From positions 1-34,082 of IMG/VR virus record IMGVR_UViG_3300005528_000120: a stretch of DNA of 34,082 nucleotides, one strand, 5' to 3'. The DNA is from a virus. Position 1 is the stretch's first letter. Each line of letters begins with the position of its first letter. The notes below the pieces were generated by a model. That model saw only the letters and a list, made by a program, of their open reading frames with translations, had not been told where the DNA came from and searched no databases. Below, piece after piece: positions 12,990-31,364 of this stretch. The translations under genes and the position numbers were made by a program.

Positions 12990-13026
12990 GACAGTGGAGT
13001 GCCACTGTCAATTTCCGCCAGATGGG

Positions 13027-13506
13027 TTACTGCGGAGGATTGCCGCAATCGACCGCTGAATGCGGCAGAATGCGGTAATCTGCGGCGATGCGGTATTCGC
13101 GGCCTTCTTTCACGGGGCGTGGCGTGATTTCACCGCTGAGGATCATGTCTTGCACTTCACGCACAGAGATTTTTTCGAGGCTAGCGACATCCGATGTGGT
13201 GAGGTAAAGGCGATGGCTTTTTTGCTCGACCGCTTGAGCGCTGGCACCGGCCTCGCCGGTGATGACGCTGGTGCTTTGCGAGGGAGCACCGCCTGCAGGA
13301 CGATGGATGACGAGATTGAGCAGACCAATGAGCACCGCCGTAATGAGCATCCAGGTGATTTTATTCAACGAGGCGTCGATTTTTGAAACGGTGGTTTCAG
13401 TCATGTGCATGCGAGAGGAAAGCCCTTCGCTGCTATCGTCATCCCCGAAGAGGGCACGTTCACAACGAGTGAGGCGGTTATCGAGTTCGGCAGGATCATG
13501 ACCCAT
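13027..13506 (-). CDS. XhlA-like membrane protein with helix-turn-helix-like C-terminus
   Basis: A 159-residue protein. Residues 1-50 are a polar, helical lead (LDNRLTRCERALF ... MTETTVSKIDASLNK), then a membrane segment ITWMLITAVLIGLLNLVI; this half resembles XhlA-type proteins often found beside holins. After a Ser/Ala-rich linker, residues about 98-140 (LYLTTSDVASLEKISVREVQ, then MILSGEITPRPV, EGREYRIAADY) look like an excisionase/MerR-type helix-turn-helix. A DNA-binding-type fold on a membrane anchor in a lysis cassette is odd. The ATG at 13506 has a TTTGACT box exactly 13 bases upstream. Confidence 0.62.
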   Translation of the reverse strand: MGHDPAELDNRLTRCERALFGDDDSSEGLSSRMHMTETTVSKIDASLNKITWMLITAVLIGLLNLVIHRPAGGAPSQSTSVITGEAGASAQAVEQKSHRLYLTTSDVASLEKISVREVQDMILSGEITPRPVKEGREYRIAADYRILPHSAVDCGNPPQ

Positions 13507-13516
13507 ATGAGGCGGG

Positions 13517-13684
13517 TTAAGTCAAATGCTGCGGCGTGGGTGATGCTTCATCAGCGGTGGGTTGCACAACTAAAGCCAAGATTTGCATGGCTTGAATGAA
13601 CCGACTGAACTCAGGCGGAGTCAGCGTCAGCTTTTGGCTGGCAAGGATTTGGTCAATGACTGAGAAGGCTTCGAGCGGTTTCAT
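13517..13684 (-). CDS. Unknown 55-residue protein between fibre and lysis genes
   Basis: A short gene supported by a 4-base ATGA overlap with the 13681-13938 gene. The protein (MKPLEAFSVIDQILASQKLT ... PPEFSRFIQAMQILALVVQP ... HLT) is soluble and helical, with a Pro/Thr-rich end. The pairing of a small protein of this kind with the preceding 85-residue one directly after the tail fibre suggests a fibre chaperone or spacer gene. Not recognised. Confidence 0.55.
   Translation of the reverse strand: MKPLEAFSVIDQILASQKLTLTPPEFSRFIQAMQILALVVQPTADEASPTPQHLT
13520..13526 (-). promoter_or_regulatory. TTTGAC box before the 13506 gene
   Basis: TTTGACT on the minus strand ends 13 bases before the ATG at 13506. 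It has the same position relative to the start as the boxes before 17293, 24227, 24600, 29342 and 31344. Confidence 0.55.
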
Positions 13685-13938
13685 GGGATTTTGCTGGCAA
13701 TAGCTTGTTGGATATTTGCGATGAGATTAACCCGATCCTCATACGGCAAAGATTTAGCGGCTTCAACCAAGCGGGAAGAAGCTGCGTTGAAGTCTTGTTC
13801 AACGTAGGAAGCAATTTCAGCGTTGAGCGACCGCAGAAGATAGGCTTGCTCGGTTAAAGGTGGCTCATTGTTTTGAGCGCGTTTGGTGAGGCTTGCGGAT
13901 TGCTCTGCGTTTAGGTCAAGAGTAAGGCTGATAATCAT
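13681..13938 (-). CDS. Unknown 85-residue protein after the tail fibre
   Basis: Not recognised. The ATG at 13938 overlaps the fibre stop (ATGA), preferred over an in-frame start at 13977 inside the fibre gene. The protein begins with a short strand (MIISLTLDLNAEQS) and continues as helices (LTKRAQNNEPPLTEQAYLLR, then ASYVEQDFNAASSRLVEAAK). The opening strand followed by two helices recalls small ribbon-helix-helix or assembly-factor proteins. The coupling to the fibre suggests a fibre-assembly chaperone, an inference from position. Confidence 0.55.
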   Translation of the reverse strand: MIISLTLDLNAEQSASLTKRAQNNEPPLTEQAYLLRSLNAEIASYVEQDFNAASSRLVEAAKSLPYEDRVNLIANIQQAIASKIP

Positions 13939-16937
13939 GGTTGTGTTGCTAGTGTTGAAGTTGTTCCATCGCTCCACTTTACGACTAGGCGCGTTTTACC
14001 AGAGCCATTGTCTTCAGCATAAAGTCGGAGCCGATCTGCGGCAGGAGTGCCGGGTGCTGTCATTTCGAGCATTTCCAGCGCGGAGCCAGTTGTTCCAGCA
14101 CTGCCATTCCGAAATGCAAGAACATCAGTGGTTTCTCCATAAATGGTGCCATATCGAGTAACTGCATTGGTATCTGTGAAACGTAATGCAGCATTGGTTT
14201 GCCCAATCTGTAAATTATTAATTCTGAACTCACTGCCAAAGGCACCAAGATTTAAGGTGGCAGAACGGTCACTGCCACGCAGGGTAATGACTGCTGAGTT
14301 ATCGTTTGCCCCAACTAACAAACTGCCGCGTTGAGCAGTGCATTCCAGCAACGAAGTTGAGCCTCCAGTGCCACCCAATAAACGCAACGCCGTTGAACTG
14401 GTCCCACTGTTTGTATTCGTAATTGCATACTCCAAACCACGACAAGTAGTGCCAACAGAGTTCCAAGTTTGGCTCAACGACAAACCAGCCGTGGTGAGCG
14501 AGCCAGCATTGATCGTTTGCGCTGCCGTAAATGTATTTGCGCCCAAGATTGCCAGCGTTCCACTGGCGCTCATGGCGTTTGCCAGACTTGCGGCCACGTT
14601 GGAGCCTAGGCCGGAAATGCCGGTGGAAACCGGTAGCCCGGTGCAATTGGTAAGCGTGCCGCTGGCTGGAGTGCCTAAGATAGCAGCCGTTCCGGTTTGC
14701 GGGATGAGCATCGTGCGCCAATTGGTAGTGCTGATAGCACGGCAGATCAGATTGAAGCCGACAGGCAAAGAAACTGCGGCATTGGCTGCAATGGCATCCA
14801 GTTGTTGTCCAGAAGCTGGATAAACATTCACAGGATTTGCAGCAGCATTGGTGATGTAAATCAAACGTCCTGCTGCAGCTGAGGGTAAGGTAATGCCGGA
14901 TGGGTTGCTGGCAGCGGTGGTGATCAGGTTGTTATCATTGGTCAGAGCTCCTTGGCCTTGTGCATCCGTGCCAGCCGTGACTGCAGCCGTGGTGGTGAGG
15001 AAGAGTGCAGGATCTTGGACGACAGGTGTGTTTAGAGTGGGGCTTGTGGCAAAAACCAAAGCTCCGGATCCGGTTTCACCGGTGACGAGTGTGGCCAAGT
15101 TGGCACTGGTCGGCGTGGCAAGGAAATTGGCTGCAGCGGTGCCCGTTTGAGCAATGAGCATGGTGCGCCAAGCGGTGGTGCTGATGGCACGGCAAATGAG
15201 ATTGAAGCCGACAGGCAAAGAAACTGAGGCATTGGCTGCAAGAGCATCCAGCGTGGCGCCAGTGGCAGGATAGACATTGACCGGATTGGCTCCGGCATTG
15301 GTGATGTAAATGCGCCGACCGACCGTAGCTGTGGGTAGTGTCACGCCAGAAGGGTTGGCAGCGGCGGTGGTGATCAGATTGTTATCGGTCGTCAGAGCCC
15401 CTTGGCCTTGCGCATTGGTGCCAGCCGTGACTGCAGCGCTGGTGCTGAACGTGATGGTCGGTGTGGTAATGCTCGGTGAAGAGTTAAAAACCAAAGAGCC
15501 CGATCCGGTTTCATTGGTGACCATCGCGGCCAAGTTGGCACTGGTCGGTGAGGAAATAAAATTGGCTGCAGCAGTGCCCGTTTGAGCAATGAGCATCGTG
15601 CGCCAAGCGGTGGTGCTGATGGCACGGCAAATGAGATTGAAGCCGACAGGCAAAGAAACTGAGGCATTGGCTGCAAGAGCATCCAGCGTGGCACCGGTAT
15701 CTGGATAAACGTTGACTGGATTGGCTCCGGCATTGGTGATGTAAATGCGCCGACCGACCGTGGCTGTGGGTAGTGTCACTCCAGAAGGGTTGGCAGCGGC
15801 GGTGGTGATGAGGTTGCTATCCGTTGTCAGAGCCCCTTGGCCTTGCGCATTAGTGCCAGCCGTGACAGCAGCGGTGGTGCTGAATGTGATGGTAGGTGTG
15901 GTGATGCTTGGCGATGTGCCAAAAACCAAAGAGCCGGATCCGGTTTCATCCGTGACTGCCGCCGCCAAATTCGATGAGGAGGGAGTGGCTAACCAGGTAT
16001 CAATGCCTGTGCCTGGTGTGACTGTGGCCAAACTTGTCAGTTGCAAGGTGCTGCGAGCTGCTGCCGCATCTGCATCGTCGATGAGCGTGCGACCAAAACT
16101 TGATAGATCCGTGACTGCTGCGGTGCCGGATCCGGTAAAGTAAGCCAATTTATCCGCTGCACTGGTTAGACCGGAGATGGCATTGAGATTGGCATTGGCG
16201 GTTTGATAGACCCAGCCAACGCGGATAAAGAGGGCACCATTGCTGCTATGAGCATGCACCACAGCAGCCACTTGCACGATCTGGCCGGTGGTCGGGGCGA
16301 TGTTAGTCAAGCTGCCACTGGTGCTGCCGGCATAAAGGATATCACCATCCACCCAGGTTTGTGAGTAATCCATCCCATCCGTTTCAATGCCGCGTAGGAG
16401 GCCAAAAGCAATGACATAGCCTTCTTCTCCATCGGCTAAAACTTCAGCGGTGAGGCCCATGAAATAAGTGGCTGGGCCAGTGCCATTCCATGGCTGGATA
16501 AGTAATTTTCCGCTGTTCCCCGTGGTGCCAGCAAACATGACGGGCACACCTTTGGTGATGGCGCTGCCGGTGCTATTACGCACGTGAAAAAGCACGTGCT
16601 GGCCTACCTGCATGGCAAAGCCATTGAGCTGGAGGTCCAGCGTTTCACGATCGCTATTCCATATCATTTCGCCTTGTGTGGCAAGGCTGCCGGTGGGCGT
16701 GGTATCAAAGGCAAGACGATTCAGATTGGCGAGGTCGCCAGCATCACTCTGCGTGATTGGCCCGGATTGCACGAGCTTGCCGGTGGTGCCATCAAAACGA
16801 GCCAGGGCGTTATCCGTGGCTGAAGCAGGGCCCACGACATCCCCGCCTGCCAAAGCAGAAACATCCACGGTGACAGCACCTTGGGCATCCACGGTGACAA
16901 TTGGTGCAGCGGAAACAGTGAGAAAGACGTCACTCAT
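13935..16937 (-). CDS. Tail fibre / receptor-binding protein, 1000 residues
   Basis: A long protein very rich in Thr, Ala, Ser, Asn and Gly, with beta-type sequence throughout. The N-terminus (SATDNALARFDGTTGKLVQS) and the C-terminus (APGTPAADRLRLYAEDNGSG, then TRLVVKWSDGTT) are of a type common in phage fibres. Residues about 318-758 consist of three tandem repeats of 145-150 residues (14666-15985). The ATG at 16937 overlaps the stop of the upstream gene (ATGA). It would form a trimeric fibre recognising the host surface. No intramolecular chaperone or enzyme motif was found. Confidence 0.82.
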   Translation of the reverse strand: MSDVFLTVSAAPIVTVDAQGAVTVDVSALAGGDVVGPASATDNALARFDGTTGKLVQSGPITQSDAGDLANLNRLAFDTTPTGSLATQGEMIWNSDRETLDLQLNGFAMQVGQHVLFHVRNSTGSAITKGVPVMFAGTTGNSGKLLIQPWNGTGPATYFMGLTAEVLADGEEGYVIAFGLLRGIETDGMDYSQTWVDGDILYAGSTSGSLTNIAPTTGQIVQVAAVVHAHSSNGALFIRVGWVYQTANANLNAISGLTSAADKLAYFTGSGTAAVTDLSSFGRTLIDDADAAAARSTLQLTSLATVTPGTGIDTWLATPSSSNLAAAVTDETGSGSLVFGTSPSITTPTITFSTTAAVTAGTNAQGQGALTTDSNLITTAAANPSGVTLPTATVGRRIYITNAGANPVNVYPDTGATLDALAANASVSLPVGFNLICRAISTTAWRTMLIAQTGTAAANFISSPTSANLAAMVTNETGSGSLVFNSSPSITTPTITFSTSAAVTAGTNAQGQGALTTDNNLITTAAANPSGVTLPTATVGRRIYITNAGANPVNVYPATGATLDALAANASVSLPVGFNLICRAISTTAWRTMLIAQTGTAAANFLATPTSANLATLVTGETGSGALVFATSPTLNTPVVQDPALFLTTTAAVTAGTDAQGQGALTNDNNLITTAASNPSGITLPSAAAGRLIYITNAAANPVNVYPASGQQLDAIAANAAVSLPVGFNLICRAISTTNWRTMLIPQTGTAAILGTPASGTLTNCTGLPVSTGISGLGSNVAASLANAMSASGTLAILGANTFTAAQTINAGSLTTAGLSLSQTWNSVGTTCRGLEYAITNTNSGTSSTALRLLGGTGGSTSLLECTAQRGSLLVGANDNSAVITLRGSDRSATLNLGAFGSEFRINNLQIGQTNAALRFTDTNAVTRYGTIYGETTDVLAFRNGSAGTTGSALEMLEMTAPGTPAADRLRLYAEDNGSGKTRLVVKWSDGTTSTLATQP
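14666..15985 (-). repeat. Three tandem repeats in the tail fibre gene
   Basis: Units 15551-15985, 15116-15550 (435 bases each) and 14666-15115 (450 bases), anchored by an almost identical 40-base stretch starting at 15622, 15187 and 14737. The first two units encode nearly the same 145 residues; the third has diverged. Each contains LPVGFNLICRAIST, WRTMLI and QTGTAA. Confidence 0.9.
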
Positions 16938-17293
16938 GGCGTGGTGGTGTAATCGTTGAGCACGTCGAGAGTGCCTTGCAGATAGGTATTCACGACGCCG
17001 GAGGCGCTGGTGGTTTGGATCTGCCAATACCAGGTGCCAGGGGCGAGGTCGAGTGCTTGCGGTGGCACGCTAAAGGTCCAGGTGGCGGCATTGGTGATGG
17101 TGATGTCTCCATCTGCCGAGGTGAGTTCGAGCTCAGGATCGGTGGCGGTGGGATCGACTTTAAAAGCCATGATCACACTGGCCAGCGCACTGGCTGGAGC
17201 CGGGGTGATGGCGATGGATGAGATGCCAGTCCAGGTATCATGCTGGACGGTGCTTAGGAGTTCGTTCAGATCATCGGAGCTGCCGGGTTTCAC
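16934..17293 (-). CDS. Small tail-tip or fibre-connector protein, 119 residues
   Basis: A 119-residue beta-rich protein (SSIAITPAPASALASVIMAF, then LTSADGDITITNAATWTFSV, and LDLAPGTWYWQIQTTSASG) resembling the immunoglobulin-like or BppU-N-terminal type found in baseplate proteins, often the adaptor between tail tip and fibre. The start is GTG at 17293, decided by a TTTGACA box exactly 13 bases upstream. The stop overlaps the fibre ATG. Confidence 0.6.
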   Translation of the reverse strand: MKPGSSDDLNELLSTVQHDTWTGISSIAITPAPASALASVIMAFKVDPTATDPELELTSADGDITITNAATWTFSVPPQALDLAPGTWYWQIQTTSASGVVNTYLQGTLDVLNDYTTTP

Positions 17294-17306
17294 GTAGCAG
17301 GGCCGA

Positions 17307-17313
17307 TGTCAAA
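17307..17313 (-). promoter_or_regulatory. TTTGAC box before the 17293 gene
   Basis: TTTGACA on the minus strand ends 13 bases before the GTG start at 17293. Its TGA also serves as the stop codon of the upstream gene. Confidence 0.6.
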
Positions 17314-18273: not shown

Positions 18274-18276
18274 CTG

Positions 18277-19038: not shown

Positions 19039-19039
19039 G

Positions 19040-20380: not shown

Positions 20381-20398
20381 ATCGTGTGGCGGTGGATG

Positions 20399-20967
20399 TC
20401 AAAGGTCCACACCGGCCCATGGATCATCTAAATCCACCGCGGGCACAGGTGCATCCGTGGCGATCATTTGCCAGGACGACGTTTTGTAGGTGCGCAGGCC
20501 TTGGCGGCGGAGCTCGGCATGGATGAATCCTAACAGCTGCCACAGCGGCCAATGCCAGCCGACCTGGCGTGGATCATGCCCACACCTCACGGCCTGCCAG
20601 ATGAGAGCGATAGCGACGTCTGGCTCATCGCTATCGTCTAGGCCAAAGGGGAGGTGGCTCCGGCGGGAGGTTCCGCTTCGACGAAGGCGGCCTTCATGCG
20701 CTCGATGTCCCGCGTCATGCTTTTAAAAATGCCAGGATAGGCCGCAAGATCGAGGCTATAAGCATGCCGTTTGGCTGCCGCGAGGATTTCGTCATCACTG
20801 GCGTTTTCAATGGCAGCGATTTCTGCGGTGTGGAGGTAGTGCCACAAGGTAGCTGCGTGCAGCTGCTGGGCCTGATCCGCTGCAGGGGCAGTGATCATGG
20901 GGCAGTTTAAGCGGAGCAGCAGGGCATAGCTGGCAGCGGAGAGAGGGCGCATGGCGGGTGTGGGCAT
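20399..20967 (-). CDS. Tail assembly chaperone fusion GT, made by -1 frameshift
   Basis: Translation begins as the G protein at 20967, slips one base back at CCCTTTG (20644-20650) and continues in the -1 frame to TGA at 20399, giving about 189 residues. The T part begins GLDDSDEPDVAIALIWQAVR and runs on through HDPRQVGWHWPLWQLL to an Asp-rich end (VDLDDPWAGVDL). The frame is open across the whole overlap. The GTG at 20590 inside it is probably not a real start. Lambda makes gpGT in the same manner; the fusion binds the tape measure and tube protein during tail assembly. Confidence 0.82.
20608..20650 (-). promoter_or_regulatory. Programmed -1 frameshift signal
   Basis: On the minus strand the heptamer C CCT TTG fits X XXY YYZ in the G frame and lies one codon before the G stop. 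Seven bases further on, a perfect 9-base-pair stem (20628-20636 with 20608-20616, sequence CGATAGCGA and its complement) closes an 11-base loop. Slippery site, spacer and stem are those of a classical -1 frameshift element. Confidence 0.88.
20638..20967 (-). CDS. Tail assembly chaperone G
   Basis: A 109-residue, helix-rich protein (AADQAQQLHAATLWHYLHTA, then NASDDEILAAAKRHAYSLDL and IERMKAAFVEAEPP). The position two genes after the tube protein and directly before the tape measure, and the frameshift signal at its end, identify it as the lambda G counterpart. ATG at 20967 is chosen; the longer frame to 21348 overlaps another gene. G is the product when no slippage occurs and is expected in excess over GT. 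Confidence 0.8.
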   Translation of the reverse strand: MPTPAMRPLSAASYALLLRLNCPMITAPAADQAQQLHAATLWHYLHTAEIAAIENASDDEILAAAKRHAYSLDLAAYPGIFKSMTRDIERMKAAFVEAEPPAGATSPLA

Positions 20968-21004
20968 CAAGCGAGTTGTTGCAGGAAGAAGTTTCGAGAA
21001 TAGG

Positions 21005-21840: not shown

Positions 21841-21879
21841 ATCTAGGAAGGGTGCGCAGGCTAGGGCCTGCCTCAGTCA

Positions 21880-22263
21880 TTAGGCATCGCTATCCATGAA
21901 AGGTGAGGCGACGAACTCGAGACTGAAGGTGTGGAAATCCGCATTGGCACCACGCTGGCGGGCACCGACGAGGACGGTATCACCAAAGCCACTGGAGGCA
22001 GCGGCACGGTAGAAATCCGTGGGAGTATTCGCGAGCGAGACTTTCACCGCGAGACGTGTGGTGAACGGAGTGGCAGCAGGCACGAGTGCCTCGAGCGTGA
22101 CATTGAGTTCATCCCCCCAAAGGCAGAGGCCGACTTTTTCTCCTTGAGAGTCCACCACAAAACGGCGTTCCGTGCTGAAGCTGGCGTCTTGGTTTTGCAG
22201 GATCATGCCGGTTTGAGCGGTCAAGCCTTGCACTGCATCGGTTCCGAGAAAGGTGGCGGCCAT
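21880..22263 (-). CDS. Major tail (tube) protein candidate, 127 residues
   Basis: A beta-rich protein (ATFLGTDAVQGLTAQTGMIL, RRFVVDSQGEKVGLCLWGDE, LNVTLEALVPAATP, HTFSLEFVASPFMD) of a size and pattern usual for phage tail tube subunits, situated between the tail-completion gene and the G/GT chaperones, where the tube gene belongs. ATG at 22263 is chosen; the frame extends to 22551 only as a shadow of the neighbouring gene. A TTTGACA box at 22300-22306 lies 36 bases upstream. Confidence 0.6.
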   Translation of the reverse strand: MAATFLGTDAVQGLTAQTGMILQNQDASFSTERRFVVDSQGEKVGLCLWGDELNVTLEALVPAATPFTTRLAVKVSLANTPTDFYRAAASSGFGDTVLVGARQRGANADFHTFSLEFVASPFMDSDA

Positions 22264-22301
22264 GGAAAAGGGAGAGGGGTGAAGTTGTGGGTGCAGCGGT
22301 G

Positions 22302-22757
22302 TCAAATGGCGCGGCCTTGGGCACGGATGAGGAAAGTAAGGCGGGTGCAAAAGGTGCCATCCTCCGTTTCCTTTTCGAAGCGTTGGCTCATGAATTGATA
22401 CCAGTAACAGTGCAAAGCATCCGTGGCGGTGAGGGCGGCTTTGACCACGCTGATATCCGCCAGCCAGGACATGAGCCGGCCAGCATTGAGTTTGTGATTG
22501 GCGAGGGTGGTGGTGGTGTGCTGGGTGAGATACTCGATCTCCACCGTGCAATCCATGACACCAGGCAGATCGGGATTGACGGCAGACATGGCATCACAAG
22601 CGATGACACAGCGCGGAGATTCGAGGGCTTCCGTCTCCGTGTGGGAGGTGAGCACTTGCAGGCCGGTGAGACTGGCAGAAGCGAGGATGCTCTCGATGTA
22701 AGTGGCAAGCGCAGTCTCGAGTTTGAGATTGAGGGGAGTGTGATCGGTGTTTGGCAT
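22302..22757 (-). CDS. Tail terminator/completion protein candidate, 151 residues
   Basis: The position immediately before the tube gene and the mixed alpha/beta pattern (LNLKLETALATYIESILASA, then SPRCVIACDAMSAVNPDLPG, and CTVEIEYLTQHTTTTLANHK) fit a gpU/minor-tail completion protein that caps the tail tube. No family signature was verified. It starts 9 bases after the upstream stop. Confidence 0.55.
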   Translation of the reverse strand: MPNTDHTPLNLKLETALATYIESILASASLTGLQVLTSHTETEALESPRCVIACDAMSAVNPDLPGVMDCTVEIEYLTQHTTTTLANHKLNAGRLMSWLADISVVKAALTATDALHCYWYQFMSQRFEKETEDGTFCTRLTFLIRAQGRAI

Positions 22758-22766
22758 GGCAGTGGA

Positions 22767-23579
22767 TCAGGTGCGAGCGAGCTGGGCTCTAAGTTTGGCG
22801 CGGATTTCTTCTTTGATGCGGTGGCCAAGGCGTTTGGCGCGTTTGTCCGAATCGAGCACCCAGCGGGCACGGCGCTCGACATCGGCATTCGTGGCGTAGG
22901 CACGGGTATTGGTAAGGCGGAGCCGTAATGAGGCGGGGCCTTCAATCGGCATGTAGGTGCCTGCGGCGTGGCGTTTGGCGACTTTTGGCACGCGCACTTT
23001 GAGTGCTTGAGCCGCAGCGGCCCAGCCACCGGCGAGTTTTCCGACTTTGGCCAGCTGCTGACGCAGAAAAGCTTGATACACCGATTGCGGCACGACGGGT
23101 GCCTGCCAGATGTCCCATTTTCCTTGGCGGATGCGTTTGATTTCACGGCCACGCATGCGGCCACGCAGGAAGCGTGACTGGTGCAGGGTTTGCAAAGTAT
23201 CCAGTGTGGCCTGTGGCATAAAAAAAGGCCGTTGCACGCCGACGAGAGTGCCATCCCCCTCAACCCATAGCAGCACGTTTTCCTCATGCCTCATGCGCCG
23301 AGCGGCACGCTGCATGATGGCATCGGTCATGGGCACGGCCATTTTTTTGAGGTCACGCTTGATGGCGGCTTCACCTGCAGCCACCGCTGGTTCACCTTTA
23401 CTGCCGCTTTGCAGCAGTTTCCCCTGATGGCCCGGTGGCGTGATGCCGATGATATCCCGCACAAAGCCCATGGCATCCGTGCGCACGGTTTTATCGAGGA
23501 TGGCTTTTTGATCGACGGCGCTGAACTGTTTGAATGCGGCTTTTAGACCCGCCGTGTGGATGCGGACGGTGGGTGTCAT
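22767..23579 (-). CDS. Head-tail or tail completion protein (gp10-like), 270 residues
   Basis: A basic protein (RRMRHEENVLLWVEGDGTL, RFLRGRMRGREIKRIRQGK, DSDKRAKRLGHRIKEEIRAK) with an N-terminal part (VRIHTAGLKAAFKQFSAVDQ) reminiscent of HK97 gp10-type tail-completion proteins, which begin with a similar amphipathic helix. Its length is about twice the usual, with the extra part basic. It lies between the head-completion genes and the tail terminator. The box in register before its start is degenerate (GCTGACC). Confidence 0.55.
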   Translation of the reverse strand: MTPTVRIHTAGLKAAFKQFSAVDQKAILDKTVRTDAMGFVRDIIGITPPGHQGKLLQSGSKGEPAVAAGEAAIKRDLKKMAVPMTDAIMQRAARRMRHEENVLLWVEGDGTLVGVQRPFFMPQATLDTLQTLHQSRFLRGRMRGREIKRIRQGKWDIWQAPVVPQSVYQAFLRQQLAKVGKLAGGWAAAAQALKVRVPKVAKRHAAGTYMPIEGPASLRLRLTNTRAYATNADVERRARWVLDSDKRAKRLGHRIKEEIRAKLRAQLART

Positions 23580-23594
23580 GGCAAGGGTGAAGGG

Positions 23595-24227
23595 TCAGCC
23601 TTTGATATCGAGCTGCATGCGCAAAGCCGCGATGGCGGGGATGACAGCGGTGGCGGTGGCGCTATCCGTGCAGACAATGCTGACTCGTATATCGAGAGTG
23701 TCACCTGCCAGCAGACCGGTGGCCGTGAGATCAAAGGCTTTTTCCGAGAAGGTGAGGCTATTCATGGTCACAGCAGCCGTGGTGACGAGATCCGAGCCGG
23801 TGACATTGCCATCATTGCTGACTTCATAAGCCTCAAAATCAATGGTGCAGCTGGTGGAGGCCACGCTGGTGATCATGCCGGCAATGGCGGAGAGACGCAC
23901 GCTTTCCGCGGCGACATATTCCGGCGGCAAAGTGAAAAGGAAACGAGCACGCCGGGTGGTGGCACCTGCGTTTTTCAAATCGCCAGCGGAAATGTATGGG
24001 GCATGGGTGCCATAGGTGCCACCAGTGCTGAGGCCTAAATCATCGCTGGCTGCGGTGGTGATGGGCGTTTGAAAAGCATCCCAGATGCGCAGATCGGAAA
24101 AGGGAATGCCGTAGATGGCAAAATTATCCTGGGCCAAAAAAGAGCGGCTTTGCGCGGGCAGCAACTGCCCATCGACTTGGAGATTGCCGGAGACTTGGAG
24201 ATTGCCATCGATGCGATTGGTAGCCAT
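23595..24227 (-). CDS. Capsid- or connector-associated structural protein, 210 residues
   Basis: A beta-rich protein (RIDGNLQVSGNLQVDGQLLP, YVAAESVRLSAIAGMITSVA, DLTATGLLAGDTLDIRVSIV). The N-terminal NLQVSGNLQV pattern is of the kind seen in trimeric stalk proteins, so a head fibre or decoration protein is possible. ATG at 24227 is chosen because a TTTGACA box ends exactly 13 bases before it; the alternative ATG at 24236 would be out of register. Not assigned to a family. Confidence 0.6.
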   Translation of the reverse strand: MATNRIDGNLQVSGNLQVDGQLLPAQSRSFLAQDNFAIYGIPFSDLRIWDAFQTPITTAASDDLGLSTGGTYGTHAPYISAGDLKNAGATTRRARFLFTLPPEYVAAESVRLSAIAGMITSVASTSCTIDFEAYEVSNDGNVTGSDLVTTAAVTMNSLTFSEKAFDLTATGLLAGDTLDIRVSIVCTDSATATAVIPAIAALRMQLDIKG

Positions 24228-24240
24228 GTCCCGCATGGCA

Positions 24241-24247
24241 TGTCAAA
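24241..24247 (-). promoter_or_regulatory. TTTGAC box before the 24227 gene
   Basis: TTTGACA on the minus strand ends 13 bases before ATG 24227. It does not coincide with a stop codon here. Confidence 0.6.
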
Positions 24248-24258
24248 AGCGGCAGGCA

Positions 24259-24600
24259 TTAACTGACCGCTTCCATGGCCTCAATGGTCCAGAGAACGCG
24301 GTGGCTGTCGAGCGTGGCACGTTTGATCCGAAAGCTGCGACCACGCAGGGTGAGATTGAGGCGCTTGAGGATGCCGGTGGTGGCATCAAAGAGAACGGAT
24401 TCCGCGAGGTCGGTGCTGGGCACGGTGATCAGTAACATACGGCCCATGCGGAAGCCGCCTTTAGCATCTTCAATCTGAGTGGTGCGCTCAATGGCAGCAA
24501 CGTCATATGTTTTACCGCTGAGAGTGATGGTCTGCGGGTAAGCGGTGCTGAGAGCCTGCTGGTGGCGCTCATGCGCAGATCGAAGGGCGGCGGCGGTCAT
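24259..24600 (-). CDS. Head completion/adaptor protein candidate, 113 residues
   Basis: A mixed alpha/beta protein (AAALRSAHERHQQALSTAYP, TITLSGKTYDVAAIERTTQI, GRMLLITVPSTDLAESVLFD, LNLTLRGRSFRIKR). The first gene after the glycosyltransferase block, and logically the next structural gene after the capsid, so a head-tail connector or head-completion protein. A terminator-like hairpin and a TTTGACT box lie directly before it, implying an independent transcription or translation start. Confidence 0.55.
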   Translation of the reverse strand: MTAAALRSAHERHQQALSTAYPQTITLSGKTYDVAAIERTTQIEDAKGGFRMGRMLLITVPSTDLAESVLFDATTGILKRLNLTLRGRSFRIKRATLDSHRVLWTIEAMEAVS

Positions 24601-24613
24601 GCAGTGGGGTAGA

Positions 24614-24620
24614 AGTCAAA
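24614..24620 (-). promoter_or_regulatory. TTTGAC box before the 24600 gene
   Basis: TTTGACT on the minus strand ends 13 bases before ATG 24600. It lies in the T-rich tail of the terminator 24625-24662. Confidence 0.55.
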
Positions 24621-24624
24621 ACAA

Positions 24625-24662
24625 AACCCGCCGCGCTCTCAACCATAAAAGCGCGGCGGGTT
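24625..24662 (-). terminator. Terminator after the glycosyltransferase block
   Basis: Perfect 12-base arms AACCCGCCGCGC (24625-24636) and GCGCGGCGGGTT (24651-24662) with a 14-base loop, followed on the minus strand by TTTTGTTTTG. It ends the transcript of the 24695-25312 gene. Confidence 0.82.
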
Positions 24663-24694
24663 AAGCAACCAAACAACGGCAGAAGAAACCGTTA

Positions 24695-25312
24695 TCAAAA
24701 GGTGGCAGATGTCAAAGGTGCAGCCTCCGGTGCTAAGGTGTGACGGGCATCATGGCGATAGGTGTGGAGCACACGTGGGATGTGATGATCCTGAGTGACG
24801 TGGAGACGGGCTTGCTTGACCCAGGCGGCATCTTCGCCGTAATTGCAATCGAGGAACTGACAATGCGCGATGCGTTCACGCCGCCAGGCACAGACGTGCC
24901 AAGGGCCACGCGTGAGTTTTTGCCAACTTGGATCATCGAGGATGAGGTTTTCATCCCGTGCGCCGTGCTGGAAGATGACCTTGAAGGCTTTTCCATTGTA
25001 TAGGGCATCCTGCTCAAAGGTGATGACATGGGCCTGTGGAGATTCACGGATGGCCTGCAAGAGGCTGGGCACGTAATCGGCGGAAACCGTATCGTCATCA
25101 TCGACGAAGGCGATGTATTGGCCGCGTGCGCTGTTGAGTAAGGCTTGGCGTTTCAGGCCCACGCTGCGGTGGCGGTTGTCGTAGAGCACGAGGTGCTCCA
25201 CACTGGCTGGATTCGTGATCTGTGCGGCGATGTGCTGCACCAGCTCTTGGCATTGTGTGACACGTTCCCAGCATGCGGGAGTCAGGATGGAAAGGAGGGG
25301 TGGCGGTTTCAT
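24695..25312 (-). CDS. Glycosyltransferase family 2-like protein, 205 residues
   Basis: MKPPPLLSILTPACWERVTQ opens the fold; GLKRQALLNSARGQYIAFVD followed by DDDT gives the Asp-rich nucleotide-sugar/metal site of GT-A enzymes. Length suits a single catalytic domain. No membrane anchor is seen. ATG at 25312 overlaps the stop of the 64-residue gene (ATGA). It would transfer sugar to phage structural proteins or to host surface glycans; the target cannot be read from the sequence. A terminator follows. A TTTGACA sequence lies near its 3' end (24710-24716) without an adjacent start. Confidence 0.8.
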   Translation of the reverse strand: MKPPPLLSILTPACWERVTQCQELVQHIAAQITNPASVEHLVLYDNRHRSVGLKRQALLNSARGQYIAFVDDDDTVSADYVPSLLQAIRESPQAHVITFEQDALYNGKAFKVIFQHGARDENLILDDPSWQKLTRGPWHVCAWRRERIAHCQFLDCNYGEDAAWVKQARLHVTQDHHIPRVLHTYRHDARHTLAPEAAPLTSATF

Positions 25313-25503
25313 GGTGAATGAATGAAGGGTTGAAGTGTGGCGAGGGCATCCGCCAGTGAGTGAGGAGGGAGGTGCTGAATGCTTGTGTAAAACGAACGCA
25401 ATTTTTCCAAGCATTGATGAGCTTCTTGGATGGCCGTGTGCATGGCTTGCACTTTGGCCTCCAGTGAGGCAACCGCATCCGTCTCAGGTGTGGGTAGGCT
25501 CAT
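25309..25503 (-). CDS. Small coiled-coil protein between two glycosyltransferases
   Basis: A 64-residue protein with one helical stretch suited to coiled coil (VASLEAKVQAMHTAIQEAHQ, then CLEKLRSFYTSIQHL). It overlaps the end of the first glycosyltransferase gene by 20 bases and the start of the second by 4, so the three are translationally linked. It could be an adaptor for the two enzymes. Not recognised. Confidence 0.6.
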   Translation of the reverse strand: MSLPTPETDAVASLEAKVQAMHTAIQEAHQCLEKLRSFYTSIQHLPPHSLADALATLQPFIHSP

Positions 25504-27193
25504 AGCTTGGTGCAGCTGTCGCAGTTAATTCTTTGAAAATGGCTTCTCCCTCGATGTAGCGCTGGCGGCTGTTGTGCGTGGCATAGGTTTCATCCCATCC
25601 GGCTCCACCTTTAAAGAAGGGGTGATCATGCTCGATGACGATGTGCGTGGCATCGATGACAATACCATCGCGATACGCGGCCCATGAATAATAATCGTCC
25701 GAAAACACACTTTTAAACCGTGGGTGAAGAAAATAGCCCTGCTGCTCATATCGAGCACGGTTCATGATGGCGATGCAAAGCTGTTCATCTTGGCGATGAC
25801 CATCAGACACGCGCAGGACGGCAGGTTTTTGCCGATCCGGTGTTTGCGCAAAGGCTTCCTCAATGAGTGCATCCCAATGCATGGGTGGATTGAAATCGTC
25901 ATTGATCTGGATGAGGATCTGCCCGCAGCAGGCAGCGGCTGCAAGATTCCATGCGCCGACACTGGCTCCGTCTTTGTTTGTTTGGATGATGTGACGATAG
26001 ACGCAGAGGGGCACGCTTTGCTCATCATCAAAATCCATGACAAAAAGATGTTCGACGCGATCGGGATGCTTGGCACGATTCAGCCATTGACGGCGGGCAT
26101 CGGCGGCGAGTTTTGGCCGGCCACGAGTGGCATGCAGGAGGCTGATGACAGGCTGTGCTTGCGCTTTAAGATGATTGACCTCACGCACATCGGCCTCCGC
26201 AAATCGGCTATTGGCACGGAGTGCCATGCCGTGCAGATGGATGCCGAGCCAGCCGTAGTATTTCCCGCGGCGATTCCAGATGTATTCCGGCGGCTCACTG
26301 AGGCCGTGCATGGCTTCAGCATAGGCCAGAGCGGCGCGTGGATCCGCAAGACGGAGTTTGCAATTCACCATTTCTCCAAAGGCCTCACGCCGATACGGCA
26401 CGGCATTGAGGGCCTGGAGGAGGTATTGCTCCTGCGCCTTCGGATTCGTTGCCACCTGGGCGATATTGATCATGAGCTCATACCCTTCTTCAGGGCCGAT
26501 GTCAGGATGCTTTAAAGCTTGCTGGGCAATCTGCACGCCTTCCTCAATGCGGCCCACAAAGCGCATGCTTTGCCACAAATGAAAGAGGTGAGAAAGCGTG
26601 CGCTCGGCGGGCGGAATGTTTTCGAGGATGCGCAGATTGCGCTCATTGTTTGGCGTGCGGTCTTTGTGGGTGGCGTGGTGCCATTCAGGGGCCTCCTGCA
26701 CGATGACGCGGGGCTTTTCCATGTTCACTTTGAAGCTCTCATGGATGGGTGAGATCCATTTGCCAGCATCGCGCCGCAGGATGCGCTCACGCAGGACGCG
26801 CAGCTGATCCTCAGGCACGACGTAGGGCAGGGTGACGACATCGGGCCGCTCGGCGGCAATGCGTTTGCGGAGGGCCTGCCATTGCTCCAACGTGCCGCCA
26901 TAGACATCATCGGTATCTGCCCAGGCGATGTAATCGCCGGTGGCGAGCTTAAACGCGAGATTCCGCGCGGCGGCGAAGTCATCGACGTGAGGCCAATCGG
27001 CGTGCTCCGGTTTGTTGTGATACTCCGCAAAAATGCATCCGCGATCGAGGGCGATCTCACGTGTGAGATCCGGCTGCTGCGCACCGATGGCACGCACGAC
27101 AATGATTTCATCAAAGAGAGGCTGAAAAGAATCCAGAAAGCGCGGCATCCAGTGCTCCACATTTCCGGCGATGATGGCGAGGCTGATTTTCAT
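25484..27193 (-). CDS. Bidomain glycosyltransferase with TPR-like middle, 569 residues
   Basis: Residues 1-100 form a family 2 glycosyltransferase domain (MKISLAIIAGNVEHWMPRFL; ARNLAFKLATGDYIAWADTD followed by D, the DxD metal site). The middle (about 230-340) is helical in a TPR-like way. Residues about 345-560 look like a second GT-A domain (PVISLLHATRGRPKLAADAR, then QILIQINDDFNPPMHWDALI). It probably acts in the cytoplasm on a protein or a lipid-linked sugar. ATG 27193 is preferred over 27199; both come right after a T-run of a terminator-like hairpin and no Shine-Dalgarno is visible. It is the first gene of the cargo block between capsid and head-completion genes. Confidence 0.82.
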   Translation of the reverse strand: MKISLAIIAGNVEHWMPRFLDSFQPLFDEIIVVRAIGAQQPDLTREIALDRGCIFAEYHNKPEHADWPHVDDFAAARNLAFKLATGDYIAWADTDDVYGGTLEQWQALRKRIAAERPDVVTLPYVVPEDQLRVLRERILRRDAGKWISPIHESFKVNMEKPRVIVQEAPEWHHATHKDRTPNNERNLRILENIPPAERTLSHLFHLWQSMRFVGRIEEGVQIAQQALKHPDIGPEEGYELMINIAQVATNPKAQEQYLLQALNAVPYRREAFGEMVNCKLRLADPRAALAYAEAMHGLSEPPEYIWNRRGKYYGWLGIHLHGMALRANSRFAEADVREVNHLKAQAQPVISLLHATRGRPKLAADARRQWLNRAKHPDRVEHLFVMDFDDEQSVPLCVYRHIIQTNKDGASVGAWNLAAAACCGQILIQINDDFNPPMHWDALIEEAFAQTPDRQKPAVLRVSDGHRQDEQLCIAIMNRARYEQQGYFLHPRFKSVFSDDYYSWAAYRDGIVIDATHIVIEHDHPFFKGGAGWDETYATHNSRQRYIEGEAIFKELTATAAPSYEPTHT

Positions 27194-27200
27194 AGGCATA

Positions 27201-27234
27201 AAAAAACCCGCGCCGGTGGTGCTCCGAACGCGGG
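27201..27234 (-). terminator. Terminator after the major capsid gene
   Basis: On the minus strand the stem CCCGCG/CGCGGG (27229-27234 with 27207-27212, 16-base loop with possible inner pairs) is followed by seven T. The glycosyltransferase start codons follow directly after the T-run. Confidence 0.7.
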
Positions 27235-27257
27235 CGGGATTACTCCCAAGAGGTGAA

Positions 27258-27290
27258 CCGCCCGGCGCGAGCACCAATCGCGACGGGCGG
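27258..27290. promoter_or_regulatory. Second hairpin between capsid gene and cargo block
   Basis: CCGCCCG (27258-27264) pairs with CGGGCGG (27284-27290) and CGCGA (27266-27270) with TCGCG (27278-27282), loop of 7. The 8 bases 27269-27276 (GAGCACCA) are complementary to 27217-27224 in the loop of the terminator hairpin. There is no T-run, so this is not a simple terminator. Confidence 0.6.
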
Positions 27291-27304
27291 GAGGGGATGA
27301 CGGA

Positions 27305-28198
27305 TCAGGTCGTGGGTGTGGTGAAAACCTTCAGCGCATTGGTGACAGCTGCTGAATAACCAAACAGAATGTGGGTATTGATGAACCACGTGCCGGAAGC
27401 GCGATTCCAATGGCGGGTGTAGAGCATCGAGATGCCGCTGTCTGCATCCGTGAACTGCTCGAAAGCCGAGTATTCTTCCTGTGGCAGGTAGTTACCCAGA
27501 TTCCGCATGGCAACGGCGACCGCTTCCTGACCGGCGCAGAAGCCGATGAGGGAGATGGAATTTGTAGGCAGGATATCCGTGCCATACACATCCATGCCGA
27601 AGAGGCGACCCAGCTGACCTTCACGGATGGCATTGGTATCGCCACGGTTCAGGGCCAGAACGAGGTTCGTATCGGAGAGCAGGCCAGCCTCGACACTGAG
27701 GTTACCCACAAAGGACTTTGTTCCACGAACACCAGCAGCAACGAGCTGACGGCGAGCTTCGATGAGGCTGTTCCGGTTGTAGTTGGCGGAGGCGGTGGTG
27801 AGGACAGCATTGCCAAAGTTTGTGGTGGTGAGCACGCTGAACACATCCTGCAGGAGGCGCTGAGCAGTAGCCTGAGCGAGCTGACTGCCAAACTGCTCGA
27901 TGCGGCGAGCATTGGAGCTATCGGCGATCTGGCGAGGGGTGAGATCCACAGGGGTGATGTAGCGCTTATCCATCGTGACGGTGATGGCGCTGATGGTGCC
28001 GCCGGTTTGCTCATAAGCCGTGGCGCCTTGAACGAAACTGGTGGTGGTGACATTACCAAAGAGAGGCACAACCACAGCACTACCAGGTGCGGCGACTTCA
28101 TTGCTGAGATCGGTGGAGAAAATATTGAGCGGCATCAAGATTTCCGTCAATTGCTGGAAAACGGTTTGGCCGAAGAGGGTGTCGTTGAAAGTAACCAT
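27305..28198 (-). CDS. Major capsid protein
   Basis: A 297-residue protein directly after the protease/scaffold gene. The pattern (FSTDLSNEVAAPGSAVVVPL, MDKRYITPVDLTPRQIADSS, AQATAQRLLQDVFSVLT, SNGISL-type loop before LIGFCAGQEAVAVAMRNL) is that of HK97-fold phage capsid proteins: an N-arm, a long spine helix, and a C-terminal A-domain with a membrane-free hydrophobic core. No start box or Shine-Dalgarno is evident at 28198; a TTTGACA lies 45 bases upstream. The hairpin/terminator pair follows the gene. Confidence 0.85.
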   Translation of the reverse strand: MVTFNDTLFGQTVFQQLTEILMPLNIFSTDLSNEVAAPGSAVVVPLFGNVTTTSFVQGATAYEQTGGTISAITVTMDKRYITPVDLTPRQIADSSNARRIEQFGSQLAQATAQRLLQDVFSVLTTTNFGNAVLTTASANYNRNSLIEARRQLVAAGVRGTKSFVGNLSVEAGLLSDTNLVLALNRGDTNAIREGQLGRLFGMDVYGTDILPTNSISLIGFCAGQEAVAVAMRNLGNYLPQEEYSAFEQFTDADSGISMLYTRHWNRASGTWFINTHILFGYSAAVTNALKVFTTPTT

Positions 28199-28250
28199 GA
28201 GATTTTAAGGAGTGAGGTGTGAGAGGTGACGTGGGTGAAGAAGTGTCAAA

Positions 28251-29342
28251 TCAGGCGGCGGCAGCGAAAAAATTGGATGGCTTGCGGAGTTCCTCGCGAT
28301 GCTTGTTGAAGAAGCGGGTGCGCTCAGCAGCATCTGTGATCACGGCGTATTGTTCCGCGATGGTCATCTGCTCTTTGGGCTTGGCATGAGCCACAGCAGC
28401 GGCACCGCCTGCAGCAGCGGCTGCGCCATGGGTGATGAGTGCTTTGATGTTCGCAAGTTCACCTTCAAGTGCGATGATCTTGGCTTTCTCCGCAGCGGTG
28501 GCATCGGTGATGCGTGCGGCAAAGGCGGCTTTTACATCGGCATCTTCAAAATCGATGACAACGTTTTTGGCAGGTGGCTGCCATGCTTCGATGGCATTGC
28601 AGATTTCATCTTCGGAGGCGTTATCGGCAAAGGCGATGCCGATCTTTTTGGCGAGGGCGAGGAGGGCTTTCATTTGTGCTGGATTGAGGTAAGGAGGTGA
28701 ATCGGCATGCGCCGTGGATGACGCTGGAGTGTCAAACAATGCAGCAGGCCGATGTGTGAGATGCGCCGTGAGGCGGCTGGATTTGAAAGCGCTGGCGCTG
28801 AGAGCGACGGCATCGGTGAGCTCATCGGCAAAACCTTGTGCAACAGCTTCTTCACCGGTGAGCCACGTCTCGGCATCCATCATGGCGGTGAGGTCTTCAT
28901 CGCTCTTTTTCGTGCGGTCACGGTAAGCAGCAATGAGCGAGCCTTTGAGCTTATCGAGCAAATCGGCAAGCTGGCGCATGTCCGCTGCATCTCCCATGGC
29001 GACCCCACTGGGATTGTGAATCATGAGGTAGGCATTGCGCGGCATCTCGATGCGCGTGCCGGCCATCGCGATGACGGAGGCCATGGAGGCGGCAAGGCCT
29101 TCAATGCGGACGTTCACATTGCCGCGGGCCTTTAGCGCATGGTAAATGGCAAGACCGTCGAAAACTTCACCACCGGGTGAATGCAAACTGAGTGCGATCG
29201 GACGATTGGCTGGAATGCTTTTGAGCTCATCGAGAAAGTCTTTGGCGGTGACTCCCCAGAATCCAATTTCATCGTGGATGGAGATTTCAGCGGTGGGCGC
29301 ATCGGCGGCGTTTTTGATGTGATACCAAGATTTGCGGGACAT
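28251..29342 (-). CDS. ClpP-like prohead protease with C-terminal scaffold domain
   Basis: A 363-residue protein. Residues 1-180 are the S14/S49-type protease: LSLHSPGGEVFDGLAIYHAL, the nucleophile Ser86 in EGLAASMASVIAMAG, His109 in YLMIHNPSG, and an acidic residue near MMDAETWLTGEEAVAQGFAD. Residues about 220-350 are helical and Ala/Lys/Glu-rich (SEDEICNAIEAW, DADVKAAFAARITDATAAEK), a scaffolding domain. The protease cleaves scaffold and capsid proteins during head maturation. The TTTGAC-type box is at 29356-29362. A further TTTGACA lies inside the gene at the domain border (28730-28736). Confidence 0.87.
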   Translation of the reverse strand: MSRKSWYHIKNAADAPTAEISIHDEIGFWGVTAKDFLDELKSIPANRPIALSLHSPGGEVFDGLAIYHALKARGNVNVRIEGLAASMASVIAMAGTRIEMPRNAYLMIHNPSGVAMGDAADMRQLADLLDKLKGSLIAAYRDRTKKSDEDLTAMMDAETWLTGEEAVAQGFADELTDAVALSASAFKSSRLTAHLTHRPAALFDTPASSTAHADSPPYLNPAQMKALLALAKKIGIAFADNASEDEICNAIEAWQPPAKNVVIDFEDADVKAAFAARITDATAAEKAKIIALEGELANIKALITHGAAAAAGGAAAVAHAKPKEQMTIAEQYAVITDAAERTRFFNKHREELRKPSNFFAAAA

Positions 29343-29355
29343 GTTCCCCGCTGGG

Positions 29356-29362
29356 TGTCAAT
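29356..29362 (-). promoter_or_regulatory. TTTGAC-type box before the protease gene
   Basis: ATTGACA on the minus strand ends 13 bases before ATG 29342. It does not coincide with the portal stop codon (29363-29365). Confidence 0.58.
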
Positions 29363-31006
29363 TCATACAATGGAGTCGTCTTCTGCTTCGGAGATATCTT
29401 CAGCTGGATCTTCGACTTGATCCATTTCAGCGAGATCACTGGCAAGACTCTGAGGGGAAAGGGTGGTGAGCATGGAATTGCTCATCTGCGAGGTGCGCTG
29501 GCCGAGGGCGATGACGGTGGCAATGCTGGCGGGGATGCCACGTTCTTTGGCAGCTTCAATGGCGAACTCAATGAGCTCGAGCTTTTGCATGACAGCGGCC
29601 TCGCGGGTGCGGCGGCCATCATTGCCGGTGAGGAGCTCCACGAGATCGTCAGGGGTGATGAGGTTTTCCCCGAGGCGCTCCATTTGCGCTTTGTGATCCC
29701 GGCCTGCATCGGCAGACGGATCGGGATCAGTAACGAAATCAATGACGTTCCAATCCTCCACGGTGGCGTAACCACTGAGTGCTCCACCAGGCATCATGGC
29801 GGTGCCGATGACTTTTTCCCAGACCCATTGAATGAGCGGGTAGAGCTTGGCGCGGAGGCCTTCATGGGCACGTTTGACCTGCTCTAGCAGTCCGCGATAC
29901 TCCGTGCCGCCGACTTTGCCACGCATGAAGATCCACTCTGGCGGGTAACCAAACTCGAAGATGAAGGGATGTAACAGATCTTCGATGATCTGTTTAAACG
30001 GCACTCCTTCCGTGGGATTGGTGAAGAAATTGAACTCCTCATCGCTGGACAGCGGAATGAAGATGGCGCCCTCGCCGATCTCAACAAAGCGGCGACCTGT
30101 ATCGGTGGCGGGATTGCCGGCCTGCTCAGCGGTGAGCACCTGCTGCATGGCATTGAGAACTTTACCATCTTTGGTGGTGGTGGCTCCTAATAGTGCGGCA
30201 CGGACTTTGGCGCTGTGCTTGCGCAGGGCTTTGAGATCGAGAACATCGAGCAGGTCTTTGCCACTGGCGAAGATGGCCGGATCGCCATGATACTGATTGA
30301 TGCGGCTAGGGTCTTTCAGGTGAAAAACATTGCGATGCCCCATGGCGTTGACGGCAGAGATATCGGTCCACTTGCTGGAGCTAAGGCTGTTTCCACTGTC
30401 TTGATTGAGGCGGATTTTGACCAGCTGATCGAGGCCATTGTAGAAGAGGCCTTGGTAGCATCGCTCGGCAAGGGTGTCTTTGACATCCCCATCGGTGAGC
30501 TGATCACGCGTGAGGCTTTGCAGCTGGAAAGCGCGTTTGGATTTGTCATTGAGACTCCAGGTGATTCCCATGGGCTCAAAAACTGGCAGGATCAAAGCCT
30601 CGCCATCGCCGAGCATGGCGGAGAGCCAACCCGACTGCAGCTGATAAAAGGTCTGCTCTTTCCGCAGATCGACGGCGGGTGAATCAGCCCATTTGGCGAA
30701 AAGGGCAGTGGCATCGCGCATGAAGTCGGCATTGGTGCTGATGCTTTTGGCACCGATGCCTTTACCAACGGCCTCGCGTGGGAGTTGGCGGCAGGCGTAA
30801 CGCACTTGGGGAATGCCATTTTCGCTTTGCAGGTATCGGCTGATCTGCACGATATCGCGGCTCTTCTGAATGCGCTCGAGTTGTTTATTGCTCCACGGTT
30901 GCCACGTGGGCATGGCACGGTAACTGCCGGAGGATGCCGGCAGTGCATTCACGATGGGCGCGGCTGGGGCAATGGAGGTGGCTGATTTCGAACGGGAGCG
31001 CTTCAT
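29363..31006 (-). CDS. Portal protein (lambda-type)
   Basis: A 547-residue protein with features of lambda gpB-family portals: IVQISRYLQSENGIPQVRYA near the N-terminus, then GDGEALILPVFEP, AFQLQSLTRDQLTDGDV, YHGDPAIFASGKDLLDVLD, and the clip/wing segment FIFEFGYPPEWIFMRGKVGG. It forms the dodecameric ring through which DNA enters and leaves the head. ATG at 31006 overlaps the stop of the connector-like gene by 4 bases. Confidence 0.87.
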   Translation of the reverse strand: MKRSRSKSATSIAPAAPIVNALPASSGSYRAMPTWQPWSNKQLERIQKSRDIVQISRYLQSENGIPQVRYACRQLPREAVGKGIGAKSISTNADFMRDATALFAKWADSPAVDLRKEQTFYQLQSGWLSAMLGDGEALILPVFEPMGITWSLNDKSKRAFQLQSLTRDQLTDGDVKDTLAERCYQGLFYNGLDQLVKIRLNQDSGNSLSSSKWTDISAVNAMGHRNVFHLKDPSRINQYHGDPAIFASGKDLLDVLDLKALRKHSAKVRAALLGATTTKDGKVLNAMQQVLTAEQAGNPATDTGRRFVEIGEGAIFIPLSSDEEFNFFTNPTEGVPFKQIIEDLLHPFIFEFGYPPEWIFMRGKVGGTEYRGLLEQVKRAHEGLRAKLYPLIQWVWEKVIGTAMMPGGALSGYATVEDWNVIDFVTDPDPSADAGRDHKAQMERLGENLITPDDLVELLTGNDGRRTREAAVMQKLELIEFAIEAAKERGIPASIATVIALGQRTSQMSNSMLTTLSPQSLASDLAEMDQVEDPAEDISEAEDDSIV

Positions 31007-31344
31007 GAATCAAGAACTTCTGAGGGTGAGTAGCCGGAGGCGAAACGAATGCCGAAGGGACGTGAAAGCGATTTGGTGATTTCACCGGCGATCTCGCTTT
31101 CGGTTTCCTCGATGGCACGCTGGAGAGCTAGGCGTCGCTGCTCAGGACTGGAATCTCGAAACTGTGCGGTGTGCGATGATCCCTCAAACGCCGTGGTGGT
31201 AATCTCTGCACCAGTGCGATCTTCAGCGAGGATGAAATACTGAGCGATGAGCCATTTTTTCTGCGCGGTGAGATCGCTACCATGCAGCATCCGCGCATGG
31301 AAACGATAGTCTGAAACCAGATCGGAAATATCAACGGCGGGCAT
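31003..31344 (-). CDS. Head-tail joining protein candidate, 113 residues
   Basis: It lies between the large terminase and portal genes, the place of gpW in lambda. The protein starts MPAVDISDLVSDYRFHARML and is mostly helical (RRLALQRAIEETESEIAGEI), longer than lambda gpW (68 residues). A gpW-like connector is the best guess from order; a small head protein is the alternative. A TTTGACA box precedes its ATG by 13 bases. Confidence 0.58.
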   Translation of the reverse strand: MPAVDISDLVSDYRFHARMLHGSDLTAQKKWLIAQYFILAEDRTGAEITTTAFEGSSHTAQFRDSSPEQRRLALQRAIEETESEIAGEITKSLSRPFGIRFASGYSPSEVLDS

Positions 31345-31357
31345 GACGGCCCGCTGA

Positions 31358-31364
31358 TGTCAAA
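31358..31364 (-). promoter_or_regulatory. TTTGAC box before the 31344 gene
   Basis: TTTGACA on the minus strand ends 13 bases before ATG 31344. The terminase stop is at 31428, so no stop codon explains it. The 83-base gap holds nothing else clear. Confidence 0.6.

Follow-up and report, generated by a model that had tools for sequence, protein, structure and literature searches.

Late promoters of phage T4 (TATAAATA) consist of a single element, an AT-rich −10 box, and in the leaderless transcripts of Thermus phages, as in the leaderless genes of actinobacteria, the mRNA begins at the RUG start codon, without a Shine-Dalgarno sequence and with a −10 element 6 to 7 nucleotides (nt) upstream. 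The late promoters of phage AR9, used by its non-virion RNA polymerase, have the form AACA-6N-T(A/G), in which the last base is where transcription starts; their element at −11 is uracil dependent, and their leaders measure 26 to 491 nt (PMC5312081, PMC7598289). Cluster K mycobacteriophages have start-associated sequences (SAS and ESAS); for SAS, the 13-bp GGGATAGGAGCCC, a role in translation has been suggested (PMC3203893). Here, we focused on a short box, TTTGACA or a close variant, which precedes many late genes in an IMG/VR virus record of 34,082 bases (IMGVR_UViG_3300005528_000120; this whole stretch of DNA is referred to here as the window). Judging from sequence patterns, the extended motif TTTGACAY-N11-Y|R (Y, pyrimidine; R, purine) is likely a late promoter that would produce late mRNAs with, in most cases, little or no leader.

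The window box is like the AR9 late promoters in combining one short upstream element with a pyrimidine-purine initiator, in lacking a −35 element, and in serving many late phage genes, but it lies at −20 to −14 instead of −11, and its predicted leaders are mostly 0 to 3 nt, far shorter than those of AR9. With SAS it shares the layout of a short asymmetric repeat at the start codons of a subset of genes, in one orientation, conserved by gene family and in some cases preceded by inverted repeats. However, it reads TTTGACAY, occupies −20 to −14, in some cases has no start codon nearby, marks a Y|R step, and does not correspond to GGGATAGGAGCCC in either sequence or position. AR9 is the nearest working model and cluster K SAS the nearest in layout, and neither matches in sequence or position. 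An mRNA that begins at the start codon and has no Shine-Dalgarno sequence would be shared with Thermus phages and actinobacteria, whose −10 element sits 6 to 7 nt upstream, whereas the window box ends 13 nt upstream and no −10 is seen. Single-element promoters before many late genes also recall T4, where the element is an AT-rich −10 box, while the window box stands upstream of a GC-rich region. This comparison suggests that the box may be a variant of the phage-specific late promoters, with an unusual geometry that leaves room for a more novel mechanism or for RNA processing. No description of the motif was found in the open literature, subscription papers being outside that search.

In the window, TTTGACW (W, A or T) or ATTGACA ends exactly 13 nt upstream of six gene starts on the minus strand, all at the coordinates given by the original prediction (GTG at 17293, ATG at the others). 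The degenerate box in register before 23579 and the two boxes 16 nt before an ATG, reported at the same time, were also confirmed. These boxes are as follows.

31358..31364, minus strand: late box TTTGACA; predicted RNA start at 31344, the A of the ATG, leaderless; orthologous boxes in L065, L067, and L016.
29356..29362, minus strand: late box ATTGACA; predicted RNA start at 29342, the A of the ATG of the head maturation protease gene; 13 nt kept in relatives.
24614..24620, minus strand: late box TTTGACT immediately after an intrinsic terminator; predicted RNA start at 24600, the A of the ATG.
24241..24247, minus strand: late box TTTGACA; predicted RNA start at 24227, the A of an ATG that is a later Met of the listed open reading frame; the L006 ortholog (MATNRIDGN) also at 13 nt.
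17307..17313, minus strand: late box TTTGACA; predicted RNA start at 17293, the G of the GTG.
13520..13526, minus strand: late box TTTGACT; predicted RNA start at 13506, the A of the ATG; orthologs in G006 and G008.
20397..20403, minus strand: late box TTTGACA, 16 nt before the ATG of a tape-measure-like protein; predicted RNA start at 20383, 3-nt leader.
13006..13012, minus strand: late box ATTGACA, 16 nt before an ATG; predicted RNA start at 12992, 3-nt leader.
23593..23599, minus strand: degenerate box GCTGACC, 13 nt before the ATG at 23579, with C|A at the start; identified by sequence only.

For 40 starts, between 0.008 and 0.02 boxes at 13 nt are expected by chance, so that observing six, P(≥6) = 4e-16 to 9e-14, is far above chance, as had been claimed. 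The boxes are also strongly biased in strand, with 17 on the minus and 3 on the plus strand; TTTGACA itself occurs 11 times on the minus strand and once on the plus strand, against 2.3 expected on each. None of the early starts checked carries a box, and the reported lack of Shine-Dalgarno sequences at box genes holds too: a match of at least 4 nt was present at 0 of 17 late starts versus 6 of 10 early starts. If the promoter reading is true, many late genes would have promoters of their own that yield leaderless mRNAs, ordinary Shine-Dalgarno sequences being more frequent at early genes, and the passage from the early to the late phase would switch both the mode of transcription and the mode of translation. 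A short asymmetric site in a single orientation at gene junctions of a temperate phage (the window encodes an integrase) could also be a stoperator-like repressor-binding site or a module-boundary sequence between genes, but a fixed 13-nt distance to an ATG or Y|R step is not required of such sites, which would not be limited to late genes either, making this explanation extremely improbable.

To characterize the motif, sites were de-duplicated by similarity, with gene starts called by simple rules. The matrix of 31 nonredundant 13-nt sites reads TTTGACAY, followed by a C-rich spacer and then a pyrimidine before ATG or GTG. A pyrimidine occupies −1 in all 34 sites with a start codon at 13 nt (27 ATG and 7 GTG), compared with 60% of the starts without a box in these phages, a control that includes some wrong starts. 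TTG was found at 13 nt in none of the 31 sites where it was permitted. Among 53 nonredundant boxes without a nearby start codon, the class that distinguishes transcription from translation, 30 still have a pyrimidine|purine step at 13 nt, against a share of 23.5% over the other offsets (p = 2e-7), the runner-up offset having 19, and by eye the step is present at 12 of the 13 late boxes of the window, the exception being off by one base. Because the Y|R step persists without a start codon, the box appears to set the RNA start, with the ATG placed on that start; on this pattern of bases, the fixed 13-nt distance is a property of the box and not of the ATG. With its Y|R junction and its ATG or GTG sequence, the start codon at the 13-nt sites could plausibly serve as an initiator. 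We infer that transcription begins at the Y|R step and that leaderless mRNAs result where the start purine is also the first letter of the start codon. The box at −20 to −14 would then be the sole conserved upstream element of the promoter, and RNA would start 13 nt (±1) after it, at the purine of a pyrimidine-purine step. This purine would be the first base of the start codon in many late genes, while others would have a leader of 1 to 3 nt or of about 10 to 45 nt, the latter often nearly G-free (major capsid, 127-amino-acid gene, nested scaffold), and one box would drive a short noncoding unit ending at a terminator. Of the interpretations first offered, the near-leaderless late promoter is thus favored by the step at 13 nt even without a start codon, whereas its reading by the phage's own σ factor is not supported and the alternative of a translation signal is disfavored.

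Late boxes away from 13 nt, which the original prediction had overlooked, are informative about the mechanism; they are listed here with the noncoding unit that one of them precedes.

33991..33997, minus strand: late box TTTGACA heading the late cluster, before a 233-amino-acid gene (presumed terminase small subunit); predicted RNA start at 33977, leader of about 10 nt; layout shared with G006 and G007.
28730..28736, minus strand: late box TTTGACA within the protease gene; an internal transcript is predicted, from which a nested scaffold would be made, beginning at the in-frame ATG at 28673 (codon 224); kept in L065, L066, L071, and L016.
28244..28250, minus strand: late box TTTGACA right after the protease stop, 45 nt upstream of the ATG of the major capsid gene; predicted RNA start at 28230, leader of about 32 nt, nearly G-free.
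24710..24716, minus strand: late box TTTGACA upstream of the noncoding unit; predicted RNA start at 24696.
24622..24696, minus strand: candidate noncoding RNA of about 75 nt with a 5′ hairpin, conserved TGGTTGCT, and a 17-bp terminator hairpin (24662-24625).
22300..22306, minus strand: late box TTTGACA before the 127-amino-acid gene (ATG at 22263); predicted RNA start at 22286, 23-nt G-less leader.

In conserved genes, 13 nt is the commonest distance from box to ATG, but 14, 16, 23 to 24, 31, 35 to 45, and 56 nt also occur. Relatives retain the box of the major capsid gene although its distance to the ATG drifts (35, 42, or 45 nt), with leaders that are nearly free of G, and the box inside the protease gene, which precedes the in-frame ATG at codon 224, is likewise kept in several relatives. 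The unit behind box 24710-24716 has no conserved reading frame; it forms two hairpins, in which six pairs are changed on both sides, and ends in the 17-bp terminator. The box that follows this unit starts inside the T run of the terminator, and the next gene comes directly after it. A translation signal, in which UUUGACA at −20 to −14 would sit where mRNA leaves the 30S subunit and would stand in for the Shine-Dalgarno sequence, would explain the fixed ATG distance in most box genes, the lack of a box at starts overlapping a previous stop, and the lack of Shine-Dalgarno sequences in late genes; in the 31-nt class, looping out a 17-nt hairpin would even restore a distance of 14. It is nevertheless quite unlikely, since boxes lie 23 to 56 nt before starts (35 to 56 nt for capsid and scaffold) and before a noncoding unit with its own terminator. 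The distance to the start, 13 to 56 nt in conserved genes, is not the constant one of a Shine-Dalgarno substitute, and the Y|R step at 13 nt occurs without any start codon.

Some observations concern these loci in their own right. The nested scaffold (140 amino acids, 28251-28673, minus strand) probably arises by initiation at an in-frame codon within the head protease gene, as in lambda C/Nu3, and here has a separate box inside that gene. The hairpin of the 31-nt-spacing relatives (G398, G400, G404, and G411), TCGTCA-N5-TGACGA, is located between the box and the ATG of a 593- to 594-amino-acid gene. The small-RNA candidate of about 75 nt, upstream of a 113-amino-acid late gene, is conserved (L012:4705-4828, L070:5552-5674, L016:9484-9602, and L006:10204-10313); its terminator loop holds TGGTTG, TGGTTGCT is conserved, and Rfam gave no match for 24622-24696 in the window.

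The original prediction had looked to related phages as the arbiter of the box, and they conserve it. In 17 close IMG/VR relatives (74 to 94% in the capsid), the spacing after TTGAC peaks sharply, with 28 cases at 14 nt (equal to 13 nt after TTTGACA) versus 0 to 6 at other spacings, and the same peak was found again in a wider set of relatives; distant phage loci from other bacteria showed no spacing peak. Long box-bearing records contain 5 to 12 copies of TTTGACA on the late strand versus 0 to 2 on the other, where about 1.2 to 2.8 are expected. In addition, a Verrucomicrobiota-associated family unrelated to the window phage, the G078 type, has the box at 13, 14, and 16 nt, a pattern repeated in its own IMG/VR relatives. 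Its GpA terminase, lambda portal, and P22-type coat differ from the terminase, portal, and coat types of the window. A match in G384 that resembled the protease box was not phage-like and was set aside.

The same Y|R step could be produced by RNA processing, in which an endonuclease cuts a long late transcript carrying UUUGACAY at a Y-R step 13 nt downstream and thereby generates leaderless or short-leader mRNAs. C-A steps are readily cut in RNA, the ruler-like distance to the step is fixed, the C-rich spacer favors a single strand, and features for DNA melting are absent. However, boxes are also found ahead of the first late gene and right after strong terminators, positions at which one would less expect a long precursor, and the junction uses G as well as A, as is usual for transcription starts; we regard processing as unlikely. 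Boxes immediately downstream of strong terminators are seen in the window and in G411, and in four other records another box is located at most 30 nt from one.

As to what would read the promoter, the geometry had been said to exclude a σ70 −35 role, and this was upheld: the RNA start would fall within the gene, and the TATAAT-like −10 element expected about 17 nt downstream is not conserved, a consensus scan giving 11 matches versus 10.7 expected, none of them at the box. The window does encode a σ factor, which had been proposed as the reader:

8379..9179, minus strand: phage σ factor with regions 2 and 4 and an additional C-terminal domain; probably not what reads the box in general.

Reading of the promoter by this protein has in its favor only that a protein with σ regions 2 and 4 is encoded by the phage, and is very unlikely. 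Among the box-bearing viral records tested, Sigma70_r2 is present in the window and G008 only, being absent from eight of nine long box-bearing relatives (G006, G007, G398, G400, G404, G405, G408, and G411), and the three Sigma70_r2 matches of G078 all lie on contigs other than the prophage-like C15. Because eight of these nine relatives have no recognizable σ factor, the phage's own σ is probably not the reader, and a general role for it was rejected on this phyletic pattern; the box distance fits no σ element either. The reader may instead be a host factor or an unrecognized phage protein. Pfam and PHROGs scans of window proteins, covering part of the open reading frames, brought up no phage RNA polymerase such as the phage-encoded multisubunit enzyme that goes with AR9-type promoters. 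The extra C-terminal domain of the window σ factor (about 60 amino acids) also occurs on non-σ proteins in G006:9579-10478, G007:24045-25037, and G405:24947-26095.

Several points weigh against the late promoter. The matrix of 31 sites shows no second conserved element from −35 to the box, the spacer, which would have to be melted, is GC-rich, and to our knowledge the box distance fits neither the −10 nor the −35 element of any known σ factor. Some starts at 14 nt carry a purine at −1, and the site counts, in which the remaining orthologs are still related despite de-duplication, surely include some chance boxes. Mean folding upstream of the boxes equals background, so that the link to terminators holds for few sites only and a hairpin always upstream of the box was rejected. 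In a search for a reader shared by both families, hhalign on selected proteins gave only a DUF5906/primase-type protein and a ParB-like N-domain, the latter on a protein that is itself a box gene in G078, and a common regulator of both families was rejected on these limited matches. A more far-reaching claim, which we make only tentatively, is that of a promoter class whose sole upstream element, at −20 to −14 over a GC-rich spacer, falls outside the −10/−35 contacts of any known σ factor and is common to unrelated phages of one host phylum; it would imply an undescribed specificity factor or an initiation mode dedicated to leaderless late mRNAs. If true, this geometry could make the box a lead to a new specificity factor.

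Recognizable genes of the window encode a portal, head protease, major capsid, terminase, tape measure, and integrase. Its best named relative, together with a Cerasicoccus locus, is Akkermansia phage Moulinsart, whose terminase is 33.8% identical and whose terminase, portal, and protease genes are similarly ordered; Moulinsart and the more distant G412 are without the box. Given this kinship, and since the G078 genome of the second box-bearing phage was sampled from the same phylum as Cerasicoccus, the host is probably a member of the Verrucomicrobiota. A terminase search in 388 Verrucomicrobiota genomes yielded distant matches only. On host chromosomes, the box is not enriched at starts, surveys of 115 and 388 genomes giving low counts per genome and no large excess. 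Lists judged by eye place the G078 box sites in one prophage-like contig (C15:6937-21633), with no excess at 13-nt spacing outside it, and a host-wide Verrucomicrobiota signal was rejected on these surveys and this restriction to one contig. In uncultured, apparently Verrucomicrobiota-associated phages, the motif could help to locate internal starts (the scaffold is an example) and small RNAs, and to assign gene starts correctly.

Near the early genes, a TTTGACA at 9506-9512 resembles an ordinary −35 of the early/lysogeny region. The stretch 9480-9540 (minus strand), near the early/lysogeny switch, holds TTTGACATACCCATTGGGT flanked by ACCCATT repeats and is probably an ordinary σ70 promoter plus operator. 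A terminator-like hairpin, GCCCGCGTTCGGAGCACCACCGGCGCGGGT, with a T run is identical in six records, namely, the window (minus strand, offset 6877 from the 5′ end), G006, G007, G008, G405, and G408. Finally, two glycosyltransferase genes are inserted into the structural cluster of the window (24695-27277, minus strand).

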